A stretch of 59,062 nucleotides of DNA, taken from assembly GCA_947623505.1 (NCBI GenBank), contig CANQGT010000012.1, positions 1 to 59,062 of the forward strand, read 5' to 3'. Each line of letters starts with the position of its first letter. Position 1 is the stretch's first letter. Below, in pieces: positions 13,009 to 16,483 of this stretch. The notes beneath the pieces were generated by a model. The model had not been told where the DNA came from. It ran no database searches and saw only the letters and a program-made list of their open reading frames with translations. A program made the translations under genes and the position numbers. The stretch is from an uncultured Clostridia bacterium (GTDB lineage Bacteria > Bacillota > Clostridia > Oscillospirales > Acutalibacteraceae).

Positions 13009-13041
13009 AAGCCTCTCCTTGCACGGGAGAGGCTTGTTTTT
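13009..13041 (+). terminator. terminator of the yhaM-prmA-hydrolase operon
   Basis: AAGCCTCTCC, loop TTGCAC, GGGAGAGGCTT, then GTTTTTG. Its loop and arms resemble the repeats that follow, so it may itself derive from one. Confidence 0.75.
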
Positions 13042-13059
13042 GCAGATATGTTCTTTAAC

Positions 13060-13480
13060 CGCTTTGGCTCCCCTGTGCAAGGGGAGCTGTCTGCAATTAT
13101 GCAGACTGAGGGGTTGTCGATATAATCTTTAACCGCTTTGGCTCACCTGTGTAAGGGGAGCTGTCTGCCGCAGGCAGACTGAGGGGTTGCCGCTATAATC
13201 TCTAACCTCTTTGGCTCACCTGTGCAAGGGGAGCTGTCTGCATTTATGCAGACTGAGGGGTTGGTCAGTTACAATAACGCTATTGTAGCAGAAACTACAA
13301 CCCTTCCGTTTCGCTCTCGCTCAACACCTCCCCTTACACAGGGGAGGCATTGGGAGAGGAGGGATTGTTCGCTTGACATAACCTTACACAGGGAAGGCTT
13401 GTTTTTGCAGATACGCTCATTAACTTCTTTGGCTCACCTGTGCAAGGGGAGCTGTCTGCCGCAGGCAGACTGAGGGGTTG
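13060..13480. repeat. left cluster of palindromic repeats
   Basis: Non-coding. Four near-identical A units of about 55 bp start at 13062, 13136, 13208 and 13427. Each carries two stem-loops, GCTCxCC/GGGGAGC and GTCTGC/GCAGAC, and ends in TGAGGGGTTG. Inverted B units lie at about 13299-13348 and 13379-13400. The short ORFs predicted here only read through the repeats. The last A unit ends 4 bp from the stop codon of the dockerin gene. Confidence 0.9.
13213..13348. mobile_element. MITE-like element, copy 1 (136 bp)
   Basis: It begins GGCTCACCTGTGCAAGGGGA and ends with an inverted version of that (CCCCTTACACAGGGGAGGC). A perfect TTACAATA/TATTGTA hairpin lies in the middle (about 13268-13287). 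It matches copies 2 and 3 in order and length. No ORF inside. Confidence 0.6.
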
Positions 13481-13483
13481 TTT

Positions 13484-15541
13484 TTATTTGATCTTATCAA
13501 AGCTGTCAATTATCCCTGCGATTTTTTGCATTATGATCAACGCGTCTAACGGGTCTATGTTTCCGTCGCCGCTTACGTCGGCACGCGCAAACGCATCGCC
13601 GTCAAGCTTAGCATCATCGTATCCTGCGATATATCTCTTGACAATAAGCACGTCTAACGGGTCTATATTTCCATCTCCGTTCACATCGCCGAGTTCGCCC
13701 TTGAATTCGGAAGCTTCCGCTTTCAGCATATATTCGCTGAAATGCTCCGTTGTGAATACCATATAGCCGTCTTTATATGCGGCGTTCATATCCGTCATCG
13801 TTCCGTCGGATTCTACGCGGTAAACCTTTACGCTTTCGCCGTCCATCGTTTCGGGTACGGGTATTTTAACCGTTACGCTTCCCGTCGGCTGAACCTCAGC
13901 ACCGCCCGACCGGAGTGAAATATCATATGTAACGCTGTCCTCCGTTTCTTCCTTTACGGTAACAACAAGTTCTGTATCTGTCGGCAATTCGCTCTTGTCG
14001 GTATCTACAGTTATTCCGCTTTCTTCGTCACTGAAAATATTAACGGGCGGGAGCGTTACATCGGCAATCGCTTCCGAATCGTCGGCAAATTTATCGGCAT
14101 TCGCGGGGAAGTTTTTGCCGCATTCCGTGCAATGATTGTATGCTATATTGCCGGGCTCGGTCTCTGTAGGTTCTATTGCTTCATATACCTCAAACTGATG
14201 CCCCGTCGCGGGGATTTCTTCGGTCTTTTCCTCTCCGCACACAGTGCAGATGTAAGTTTTAATGCCCGCATCCGTACAGGTGGCGGCTTTCGTGACCTTG
14301 CCGGAATCCCATGTGTGGGTAATTGCATTTGCAATTGTTATTGCATTTATTTCATAACAAGTTGTGTTTCCGCTTTTATCATATGCATAAATATGGGTAG
14401 CATAAACCCCTGTTTCATTTTTATGGTCACTTGTTTTAACAGTAAATGTATATGTATCTCCTTCTTTTGTGCCTGATGCTTTTGTTGAAGTTCCCCAATC
14501 CCGTAATAGATCATCCTGACCATTATATAATGTCCATGTAGGAAATTGTACTCTGTCTATGCCATCATTATCGGTAACCTTACAAGAAACCGTATATCCA
14601 TTATGGCTATTAGTAACCGTTACATTACTGATAACCGGTTTTGTTGTATCCTTTGGTATGTTGACAATTTTACTGCCAATACAAGGATTGTTTCCGCTAA
14701 CTGTATTTAATGCATAAACATAAACAGATTGATTTCCTGTTTTATTTGTAGGAATTTTAACATCAAATCCATGATTGTCACCGCAACCATAAACTTTGTT
14801 TACATCTGCTCTTGTTGCATTGGCATAAATTGTTTTACCACTTATATCCACATGATGTTCTTCTGCACCGCTTTGACCGGCTCCTCCACCAATGTAAACA
14901 TGAATAGCAACATTCTTTGATTTTTCATCAGGGTCGAATGCCCAGCCTCTTATATGAATATATCCATATCCTGCGTTAATTTCATCAAAGGAACCTATTG
15001 GGTCATTATTGTTATCACTTCCATATCTAAATATATAAGTCCAATTTGAACCACAATTTGCAACATTTATTTCTCTACCTGTTTGATCACCAGGATAATT
15101 ATCGTCATATATGTCTATATAACCCATATGAGCACCTACACTTTGATTATTACCTATATATATCTCGGTATGACCATTTCTCCATAATATATCTCCTCTC
15201 TGACAATTCGACAGGCCTGTGAAGCTATGCCGGGTAAATCCTTTGGAAGTTAATATATTACCCATTGTACTTGTTGTAAACCACCCCACGCCAAATCCAA
15301 CTGAGTTAAGTGCCGCTGCAACTAACGATGAACAGTCATAATCCGGATTTCCATACCTTCTTCGTTGGCTATAGCCATGTGAATTATCATTTGCAATATT
15401 AATTGCATACTGTATTGCTTGCTCTATTTTTGAATTTGTTGCAAAAGCAGTCAGACCCGCAAGGGGAATTGATGAAATAATCATCATCACCGCGAGAAGC
15501 AGTGATATTACTCTTGATTGTTTTAATGTTCTTTTTTTCAT
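13484..15541 (-). CDS. secreted NlpC/P60-like peptidoglycan hydrolase with type I dockerin
   Basis: 685 residues. Signal peptide (KKRTLKQSRVISLLLAVMM, cleavage after AFA). The Cys-His peptidase domain is at about 30-170: nucleophile in NPDYDCSSLVAAAL, His in NGHTEIYIG, then SVGAH; it resembles NlpC/P60 or Amidase_5. Then come a GWAFDPDEKSKN-type module (about 180-300), a GBS_Bsp-like repeat (about 305-410) and a ZnF-like ATC..CGEEKTEEIPATGH repeat. The C-terminus is a type I dockerin with two Ca-binding repeats (GDVNGDGNIDPLDVLIVKRYI, then ADVSGDGNIDPLDALIIMQKI). It should cut peptidoglycan stem peptides and dock onto a cohesin. GGAGGAAG precedes ATG 15541; a longer ORF upstream runs through the leader and is rejected. 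The interior is more AT-rich than neighbours. Confidence 0.88.
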   Translation of the reverse strand: MKKRTLKQSRVISLLLAVMMIISSIPLAGLTAFATNSKIEQAIQYAINIANDNSHGYSQRRRYGNPDYDCSSLVAAALNSVGFGVGWFTTSTMGNILTSKGFTRHSFTGLSNCQRGDILWRNGHTEIYIGNNQSVGAHMGYIDIYDDNYPGDQTGREINVANCGSNWTYIFRYGSDNNNDPIGSFDEINAGYGYIHIRGWAFDPDEKSKNVAIHVYIGGGAGQSGAEEHHVDISGKTIYANATRADVNKVYGCGDNHGFDVKIPTNKTGNQSVYVYALNTVSGNNPCIGSKIVNIPKDTTKPVISNVTVTNSHNGYTVSCKVTDNDGIDRVQFPTWTLYNGQDDLLRDWGTSTKASGTKEGDTYTFTVKTSDHKNETGVYATHIYAYDKSGNTTCYEINAITIANAITHTWDSGKVTKAATCTDAGIKTYICTVCGEEKTEEIPATGHQFEVYEAIEPTETEPGNIAYNHCTECGKNFPANADKFADDSEAIADVTLPPVNIFSDEESGITVDTDKSELPTDTELVVTVKEETEDSVTYDISLRSGGAEVQPTGSVTVKIPVPETMDGESVKVYRVESDGTMTDMNAAYKDGYMVFTTEHFSEYMLKAEASEFKGELGDVNGDGNIDPLDVLIVKRYIAGYDDAKLDGDAFARADVSGDGNIDPLDALIIMQKIAGIIDSFDKIK

Positions 15542-15721
15542 AATTCTTCCTCCGTAAAATAAAAAAGTGCGCAGCCGAAGCCGCGCATGAAAAACACAGC
15601 TCCGTTGCTGCAACACAAATTTCACATCTACCACGAAAGCATGCGAAAATAGAGCCTGTATTTTTACCTAAAATAAAAATACACGCTTTAGCGGCAGATA
15701 AAATTATGAAATTTGTGTTGC
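15542..15721 (-). promoter_or_regulatory. attenuator-type leader RNA, unknown class
   Basis: Read on the minus strand, the transcript is predicted to start at 15721. Its first 15 nt (GCAACACAAATTTCA, 15721-15707) pair perfectly with TGAAATTTGTGTTGC (15624-15610), closing a domain of about 112 nt. Inside are a second pair, ATCTGCC/GGTAGAT, a CGC-TAAA-GCG hairpin and a long GTATTTTTA/TAAAAATAC hairpin. A short GTTG-CAG-CAAC hairpin can compete with the 3' arm of the closing stem. An intrinsic terminator follows just before GGAGG. The layout is that of a transcription-attenuating riboswitch, but I recognise no known consensus. Confidence 0.6.
15555..15587 (-). terminator. leader terminator (attenuator) before the dockerin hydrolase gene
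   Basis: On the minus strand TGCGCGGC (15587-15580), TTCG loop, GCTGCGCA (15575-15568), then CTTTTTTATTTT. It ends 14 nt before the start codon, so it must be bypassed for expression. Confidence 0.75.
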
Positions 15722-15727
15722 GATTAT

Positions 15728-15755
15728 ATTATATCACATTTTTCCTCTCTTGCAA
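15728..15755 (-). promoter_or_regulatory. promoter of the dockerin hydrolase leader
   Basis: Minus strand TTGCAA (15755-15750), 16-bp spacer, TATAAT (15733-15728). Seven nt downstream is 15721, the first base of the long leader stem. Confidence 0.7.
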
Positions 15756-15893: not shown

Positions 15894-16043
15894 GTGAAAA
15901 AAAGTAAATACCAACGAGAATATCGACCTAAAAAATATCTTGCCGTTAATGAAAGCAGGACAGGTCGTAAAAGATATGATTCAGAAATCTTGCTCAAAGT
16001 AATACTGTTTGCATTTATGGAGACTGAGGGGTTGTCGATATAA
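15894..16043 (+). pseudogene. N-terminal stub of an IS transposase
   Basis: From the GTG at 15894 the frame reads VKKSKYQREYRPKKYLAV, then NESRTGRKRYDSEILLKV and ILFAFME. This resembles the beginning of IS1182/IS5-like transposases, where a conserved LL.xxLxAxMxxG segment follows. After GAG at 16019-16021 the sequence turns into the A-type repeat and the frame stops at 16041. Only about 43 codons remain, with no DDE residues. A promoter-like TATAAT lies just upstream. The family assignment is approximate. Confidence 0.6.
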
Positions 16044-16057
16044 TCTTCAACCGCTTT

Positions 16058-16194
16058 GGCTCACCTGTGCAAGGGGAGCCGGCTGCCGCAAGGCAGGCTG
16101 AGGGGTTGGTTAGTTACAATAACGCTGTTGCAACAGAACAGAACAACCCTTCCGTTTCGCTCTCGCTCAACACCTTCCCTTACACAGGGAAGGC
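16058..16194. mobile_element. MITE-like element, copy 2 (137 bp)
   Basis: Same structure as copy 1. The right terminal repeat has drifted to CCTTCCCTTACACAGGGAAG. The central hairpin is also altered (CAATAACGCTGTTGCAAC). Confidence 0.55.
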
Positions 16195-16222
16195 TTGCTT
16201 TTGCAGATACGCTCACTCCTTT

Positions 16223-16358
16223 GGCTCACCTGTGCAAGGGGAGCCGGCTGCCGCAAGGCAGACTGAGGGGTTGGTCAGTTACAATAACGCTATTGTAACA
16301 GAAACTACAACCCCTCCGCCTCACATTCGTTCGGCACCTCCCCTTACACAGGTGAGGC
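16223..16358. mobile_element. MITE-like element, copy 3 (136 bp)
   Basis: It has the best preserved ends, GGCTCACCTGTGCAAGGGGA on the left and CCCCTTACACAGGTGAGGC on the right, with a perfect TTACAATA-ACGC-TATTGTAA hairpin at 16278-16297. Confidence 0.6.
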
Positions 16359-16483
16359 AATAAAGGAAATCATATGCAACCCTTCCGTTTCGCTTACGCT
16401 CAACACCTTCCCTTACACAGGGAAGGCGGAGATAGGAGGGAATGTTCGCTTGCCATAACCTTGCACAGGGAAGGCGGTTTTAG

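Follow-up and report, generated by a model that had tools for sequence, protein, structure and literature searches.

In accounts of the preQ1-I, fluoride (crcB), and ZTP riboswitches, the fate of an intrinsic terminator depends on a 3′ segment, which either forms a pseudoknot with an upstream loop or enters an alternative pairing. The pseudoknot corresponds to the off state in preQ1-I and to the opposite state in the fluoride riboswitch. The ydaO (c-di-AMP) riboswitch is a leader attenuator that can control cell wall hydrolases in Firmicutes, clostridial c-di-GMP riboswitches offer an analogy for the control of adhesins, and LhrC-type small RNAs of Listeria are multicopy tandem units, each with a promoter and a terminator.

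Here, we report a leader RNA from the window, i.e., the whole analysed stretch of 59,062 nucleotides of an uncultured Clostridia bacterium. We propose, with a probability of about 0.75, that it is a promoter-coupled transcription attenuator choosing between two folds and that it belongs to a large, so far uncatalogued group of related leader RNAs in the class Clostridia. As in the accounts of preQ1-I, crcB, and ZTP, its 3′ segment, termed D, would choose between a pseudoknot and a terminator-deciding pairing, and the presumed direction of the switch (pseudoknot = off) is that of preQ1-I and unlike that of the fluoride riboswitch. In contrast to these three, the leader has a larger domain (P1 of ~14 pairs, and P2) without a match in Rfam, lacks a common metabolic gene, and has a promoter fixed relative to the element. 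With ydaO it shares the arrangement of an attenuator before a wall hydrolase, but neither the window nor 20 member loci have a ydaO match in Rfam, in line with the initial annotation, which had seen no ydaO core. Tandem promoter/terminator units are common to the family and LhrC-type RNAs; unlike LhrC, most leader copies adjoin a gene (120/206 within 40 nt, with a ribosome-binding site, RBS) and pair alternatively with their own terminator. Judged by sequence, the leader is in kind a transcription attenuator and a riboswitch candidate. The catalogues consulted contain no precedent for its sequence, its architecture, its coupling to a promoter, its tandem arrays, or its regulon of surface proteins.

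The window copy occupies positions 15755-15541 of the minus strand and comprises an extended −10 promoter, a folded domain, a terminator with a UUCG loop, and an NlpC/P60-like dockerin gene. A promoter scan places the promoter at 15755-15728 (TTGCAA at 15755-15750 and, after a spacer of 16 nt, TG-A-TATAAT, whose −10 hexamer is 15733-15728). The element proper is 161 nt long (15721-15561), starting with the 5′ arm of P1 and ending with the UUCG-loop terminator. The P1 arms lie at 15721-15705 and 15626-15610; the first base, 15721, is the predicted transcription start, and a 15-bp perfect stem beginning exactly there, as had been noted earlier, is accurate to the base (15 unbroken Watson–Crick pairs, 15721-15707 with 15624-15610), one U-G and one A-U pair bringing the helix to 17 pairs. 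Folding of the window sequence yields P2 (15698-15691 with 15634-15627). Within it lie segment A (15689-15675), whose partners, assigned from own-versus-swapped duplex energies, are B in a hairpin or, via the first part of A, C; segment B (15665-15651), for which pairing statistics and the swap test indicate two alternative partners, A and, in a pseudoknot, D; and segment C (15644-15636), the partner of A in the alignment. Downstream, the linker AGCAAC (15609-15604) joins P1 to segment D (GGAGCUGUGUUUUU, 15603-15590), which, by the duplex energies of the window copy, forms the pseudoknot with B or an antiterminator with E. Segment E (15587-15577) is the 5′ arm of the terminator with the first part of its loop, and segment F (15575-15561), supported by covariation of the E-F helix, is the 3′ arm with the U-run. 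The terminator stem (15587-15580 with 15575-15568) carries the TTCG loop, and the U-run extends to 15561. The terminator was thus rightly recognized before the ATG, while the originally given gap of 14 nt counts from the end of a longer T/A tract and amounts to 19 nt from the end of U6. An RBS, GGAGG, is seen in the sequence at 15553-15549, ahead of the gene (15541-13484, minus strand; ATG at 15541), whose 685-aa product is, by Pfam, a secreted NlpC/P60-like (Amidase_5/ELLD) protein with a GBS_Bsp-like repeat and a C-terminal dockerin; the NLPC_P60 model itself scores slightly below its cut-off. Dispersed repeats of 38–148 nt flank this gene on both sides (13013-13463 and 16005-16460).

The predicted fold of the domain noted earlier is far more stable than chance, with minimum free energy z-scores below −8 (−8.6 for 166 nt and −8.4 for 126 nt; 0/200 shuffles equally stable in each). 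Between 15400 and 16000, a scan picked out four terminator-like sites, that of the leader included, against 0.3 expected on both strands, and all four are on the minus strand; three promoter-like sites against 2.0 expected are not above chance.

The predicted pairings form a chain of exclusive alternatives: A with B or C, B with A or D, D with B or E, and E with D or F. Since D pairs either with B or with the 5′ arm of the terminator, the pseudoknot and the antiterminator are mutually exclusive. Transcription would begin at the first base of P1, and A would pair first with B, after which C would compete for A. With P1, P2, and A-C formed, B would be free for D just downstream of P1; the resulting pseudoknot would occupy D, so that the terminator E-F would form and the gene would be off. 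If B were held by A, D would pair with E, no terminator would form, and the gene would be read. Some cellular signal would tip the choice between the folds. The folding order, the direction (pseudoknot = off), and the existence and nature of the signal are what we infer. The likeliest route, at slightly under even odds, is direct sensing of a small molecule, i.e., a riboswitch, because the domain is complex and pseudoknotted; an aptamer-like domain with a complex fold is indeed conserved.

In the window copy, the duplex energies of B-D, D-E, and E-F are −14.0, −14.1, and −15.1 kcal/mol, respectively. Its 3′ part folds into the antiterminator (−20.5) when D is free and into the terminator (−14.6) when D is blocked. 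With D free, the antiterminator is preferred in 116/174 members of the family and the terminator in 58/174.

A blastn search with a 231-nt stretch hit 31 of the 60 genomes, the window's own included, and revealed a second copy, 73% identical, in the same genome, upstream of a secreted protein with BspA-type leucine-rich repeats (LRRs) and a Cohesin match (26.8 bits; cut-off 24.1). From the 31 loci inspected, 24 aligned leaders were used to build the covariance model R1. Left out were one locus with an interrupted terminator (L007), two divergent ones (L021 and L031, later matched by R1 at 66.0 and 41.6 bits), and four in which no such leader was recognized (L029, L030, L033, and L034). At L029 (G003:C99:9343-12371) the blastn match is confined to the RBS region, and the sequence before it resembles what we take to be a T-box leader. 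At E ≤ 0.001, R1 matches 49/60 genomes of the genus, 105/295 genomes (63/148 genera) of the order, and 100/391 genomes (57/223 genera) of the class; the window's own genome is counted, the three samples overlap, and the counts are lower bounds, as the filters were strict and few candidates were scored per genome. In the phylum-wide sample, scored under equally strict filters, R1 had matches in 0/397 other genomes (1/398 with the window's own). Up to 13 copies per genome were observed in the sampled genus. Among the 80 of 113 stretches listed by name, the carriers are metagenome-assembled or uncultured Oscillospiraceae, Ruminococcaceae, Eubacterium, Clostridiales, and similar bacteria, many from the ruminant gut. 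One leader (L127) is located on a Candidatus Eubacterium faecigallinarum contig and has the same score as the same-genus leader L037 (G075), which may hint at the identity of the window's genus. Overall, 217 aligned matches gave 206 distinct copies, of which 174 distinct copies entered the energy tests.

Covariation was assessed in a covariance-model alignment of 100 copies (99 distinct) from 85 loci, with duplicates left out. P1, A-C, and E-F guided the fitting of this alignment and are favoured by it; B-D and D-E did not enter the fit. For P1, A-C, B-D, and E-F together, 94.3% of cells are paired, compared with 37–47% when the partners are slid by 1–3 columns, and 36/46 pairs show changes on both sides. 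Individually, P1 is paired in 94.4% of cells (both-sided changes at 13/14 pairs), A-C in 91.6% (10/10), B-D in 93.1% (7/14), and E-F in 99.4% (6/8). The B-D pseudoknot, absent from the alignment model, falls to 37–62% upon sliding; its covariation of 0.230 compares with 0.163 for shuffled (0/500 reach 0.230) and at most 0.093 for slid alignments, while the number of its double-change pairs was reached by 33/500 shuffles. D-E is paired in 90.6% of cells, against 25–55.3% when slid, with a covariation of 0.236 against 0.220 for shuffles, 11/500 of which reach it; the other measures for D-E do not exceed the shuffles (two of them are reached by 284/500 and 466/500).

A further view was obtained by comparing the duplex energy of each member's own segments with that of segments exchanged within the same subtype (n = 174). 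Own pairings are the stronger for A-B (−9.95 vs. −7.38; better in 155/174), A-C (−11.09 vs. −5.51; 170/174), B-D (−15.27 vs. −12.63; 162/174, and 164/174 in a separate swap comparison), D-E (−12.52 vs. −11.67; 112/174), and E-F (−13.58 vs. −12.07; 150/174); three unrelated control pairings gave no own-versus-swapped gain. When swaps were restricted to the eight nearest relatives, A-B, A-C, B-D, and E-F stayed significant, whereas D-E did not (own better in 96/174, p = 0.11). The D-E complementarity is kept with little variation to test, and hence this link rests mainly on conserved complementarity. Within these bounds, D-E constitutes a conserved antiterminator that excludes the terminator, next to the promoter, leader, and intrinsic terminator before a coding sequence that are recognizable in the sequence. 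At the level of sequence comparison, the evidence shows the promoter geometry, P1, A-C, B-D, E-F, and the place before genes; D-E, and A-B as a competing state, are supported less strongly.

Two elements that had been annotated in the window copy did not carry over to the family and were dropped. The small GTTG/CAAC hairpin is present as GTTGCAGCAAC (15614-15604) and occurs in 1/174 members. CTGCCGC (15697-15691) and GCGGC (15584-15580), a suggested antiterminator, are present and complementary, but the family does not conserve a pairing between the P2 5′ strand and the terminator arm (−3.95 kcal/mol for own and −4.07 for swapped segments, with an advantage for own segments in 79/174). The alternative pairing that is conserved joins D (15603-15590) to either B (15665-15651) or the terminator arm (15586-15577). 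A further candidate, a fold-back in which P1 and P2 match in length, would require the two lengths to be positively correlated; it found no support, as rho = −0.25 (p = 0.0017) was obtained in the 152/163 copies measured, 11 having been dropped by length limits.

The promoter varies little across the 206 copies. T at −35 occurs in 99% of them, the window copy being an exception with its hexamer one base nearer (−34), and the extended −10 has T at −15 in 91% and G at −14 in 92%. A −10-like hexamer ends 5–9 nt before P1 in 175/206 copies (shuffled control fraction 0.267) and exactly 6 nt before it in 160/206; a −35 match at 16–19 nt is additionally present in 174/206. Given this fixed geometry, we count the promoter as part of what the family conserves and expect transcripts to begin at P1.

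The leaders are oriented toward genes. A same-strand ORF starts within 160 nt of 185/206 copies, 153 of them with an RBS-like motif, and an RBS-preceded ORF lies within 40 nt of 120/206, with a peak at 17–20 nt. The same procedure in the opposite, control direction gave 133 ORF starts, 37 with an RBS-like motif, and 4 within 40 nt. An ORF start within 160 nt is absent in 21/206 copies, some of which are at contig ends. The early description as an unrecognised attenuator leader holds in this respect too: it stands just before coding sequences, no known family in Rfam 15 matches it, and its stems are conserved and covary in related genomes. Two outcomes named beforehand as refuting, a significant Rfam hit and a lack of stem conservation, were thus both checked, and neither was observed.

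The downstream genes are diverse, and most are predicted to encode secreted proteins or lipoproteins; a simple, uncalibrated hydrophobicity/lipobox rule assigns 114/185 downstream proteins as secreted, membrane-anchored, or lipoproteins. In the window the leader fronts a dockerin hydrolase gene, as described, but control of such a hydrolase is too narrow a view of the family: clustering of 176 downstream proteins by similarity gave 111 groups, of which 96 have a single member. Domains were scanned in 142 downstream proteins whose genes start within 100 nt and have an RBS-like motif, after removal of duplicates and truncation to 330 aa; among the 25 of 63 families listed are 29 LRR_5, 4 CHAP, 2 M23, 2 SLH, 3 PIN7, 3 HTH_3, and 4 zinc ribbon proteins. 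Neither these 142 proteins nor the 176 clustered ones have a common metabolic theme, which would be unusual for a metabolite riboswitch. There is no defence theme either: the 142 proteins matched 31 PADLOC families, each in at most three members, most frequently of the HTH/regulator type, with single strong matches, e.g., mad3 (3.6e-24), mad8, and AriA.

This missing theme also bears on an unlikely but substantial alternative, namely, that the same attenuator is thrown by an RNA-binding protein gripping the core of P1 and the linker, or the A-B hairpin, rather than by a small molecule. When B, D, E, and F are set aside, conservation is among the highest in the outer pairs of P1 and in the linker next to them. 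P1 and this linker tend to change in step, defining two subtypes (53 and 41 copies out of 100): the linker is GACAGU in 27/53 copies with C at position 3 of P1 and AGCAAU in 20/41 with G there. Such covariation points to a tertiary core, as might be expected of either a protein site or a tertiary contact. On the other hand, no single regulator family recurs among the 142 downstream proteins (HTH_3 occurs in 3 among the families listed), and a LoaP-type NusG paralogue is not required in the genomes of the genus. NusG-domain matches were found in 52/60 of them, one in each of 51 and two in the window's genome only, so such a paralogue was rejected as a universal factor.

It is rather unlikely that the attenuator is sensorless, with readthrough depending on how fast the RNA folds or is transcribed, on temperature, on Mg2+, or on the supply of nucleotides, yielding constant low or noisy expression of surface proteins. 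The pseudoknotted off state is lower in energy than the best non-pseudoknotted fold by a median of 4.3 kcal/mol (2.5 in the window copy), pseudoknot penalty left out, and given this small gap before the penalty the two states are near balance. Over much of the inner domain, structure is kept but sequence is not, with moderate conservation of unpaired bases, and noisy expression is plausible for the many regulated surface proteins. However, a base-exact promoter and a pseudoknotted domain of ~110 nt, kept across many families, seem more than a set-point needs.

Another possibility, which we consider improbable, is that the element chiefly yields an autonomous small RNA of ~160 nt, with its own promoter and terminator (both present by sequence) and acting in trans, the neighbouring genes being incidental. 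Tandem arrays favour it. Sequences of G008 (4 units) and G077 (3 units) contain arrays without ORFs between the units, the latter followed by ~250 nt without a gene, and match positions indicate further arrays of 3 units in L100, 3 in L175, and 2 in several others; upstream copies in such arrays precede no gene. Against this, the excess of nearby RBS-preceded ORFs (120/206 vs. 4/206) is at odds with independence from the gene, and a trans-acting RNA would have no need of the D-E complementarity to its own terminator.

By analogy with known clostridial riboswitches, a c-di-GMP sensor of adhesin genes could be imagined, BspA-type LRR proteins being the largest recognizable group among the families listed (LRR_5 in 29/142), but this is very improbable and largely refuted for a general ligand, unless GGDEF detection failed widely, as GGDEF is absent in 24 of the 36 leader-bearing genus genomes with at least 90% completeness (present in 12); those lacking it include G015, with 13 leader copies, and G077 and G070, each with 5 copies and a reported completeness of 100%, and no c-di-GMP class matches in Rfam. 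Diadenylate cyclase (DAC) and RelA_SpoT domains do not discriminate, each occurring in 58/60 genus genomes; given this distribution of DAC, c-di-AMP is a possible ligand of the new fold. A phage or plasmid element was rejected after blastn gave no plasmid match and three scans of viral contigs gave 0 exact pattern matches, the patterns being strict and divergent copies missable. Compensatory changes, including G-U pairs, and the mostly one-sided location of genes argue for RNA and against a DNA palindrome or MITE.

A known Rfam family was excluded for the window and 20 member loci. In the window, Rfam 15 yielded only a tRNA at gathering level, the best sub-threshold match at the leader having 25.3 bits against a cut-off of 141; in the member loci, nothing overlapped the element at E ≤ 0.5. 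The consulted passages of the literature, including PMC11109978, PMC8632094, and PMC8040213, do not describe this family, with supplements and most subscription papers outside their coverage. According to its passages, PMC8040213 surveys structured RNAs of the human microbiome and reports 3161 candidates, cis-acting and terminator-containing ones among them; the leader family, not described in those passages, could be one of these, and an earlier unnamed detection is possible.

On the reading as a transcription attenuator, this adds a large leader-RNA family without a match in Rfam 15, would explain the switching of adhesin-like and cell wall proteins in such gut bacteria, and offers compensatory mutations and loci for tracing an orphan signal. 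Tentatively, and at somewhat less than an even chance, we suggest an abundant new riboswitch class (or a set of ligand variants) of gut Clostridia, with its own extended −10 promoter, a regulon of surface and accessory proteins, and a signal not known to act via RNA, spreading by tandem arrays and by duplication together with a signal-peptide sequence.

Several individual loci are of interest. In the window's genome, leaders front both a cohesin-LRR protein (L002, G000:C1:149975-153204) and the dockerin protein of the window (13484-15541), and co-regulation of cohesin–dockerin partners through two leader copies is possible. Three secreted proteins of this genome (L001, L002, and L003, G000:C13:2567-2590) have a near-identical signal-peptide start, MKKRTxKQxRVISLLLAVMMI; two of the genes carry the leader and none was seen before the third, as if leader and signal peptide were shuffled as one block. 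A 77–78 aa protein follows the leader at L068, L226, L230, L237, and L242, i.e., in five families, and two members scanned had no Pfam or NCBIfam match above cut-off. A PIN7-type gene also recurs behind the leader (L093 in G008, L056, L095 in G015, and L179), and in two of the genomes it follows a tandem array, of 4 leaders in one and 2 in the other. In the tandem pair at L097:877-1440, what follows the first copy is a relic of the beginning of the gene downstream; by this sequence, arrays may grow by duplication of the leader with the gene start. Finally, in G024 one common sequence interrupts four leaders at the terminator loop (L277, L278, L280, and L281; the first 60 bases of contigs C3, C9, and C28, and C8:29322-29375). 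It occurs six times, at least five of them close to a contig end, and probably represents one end of an insertion element present in several copies and directed at the terminator loop of the leader.
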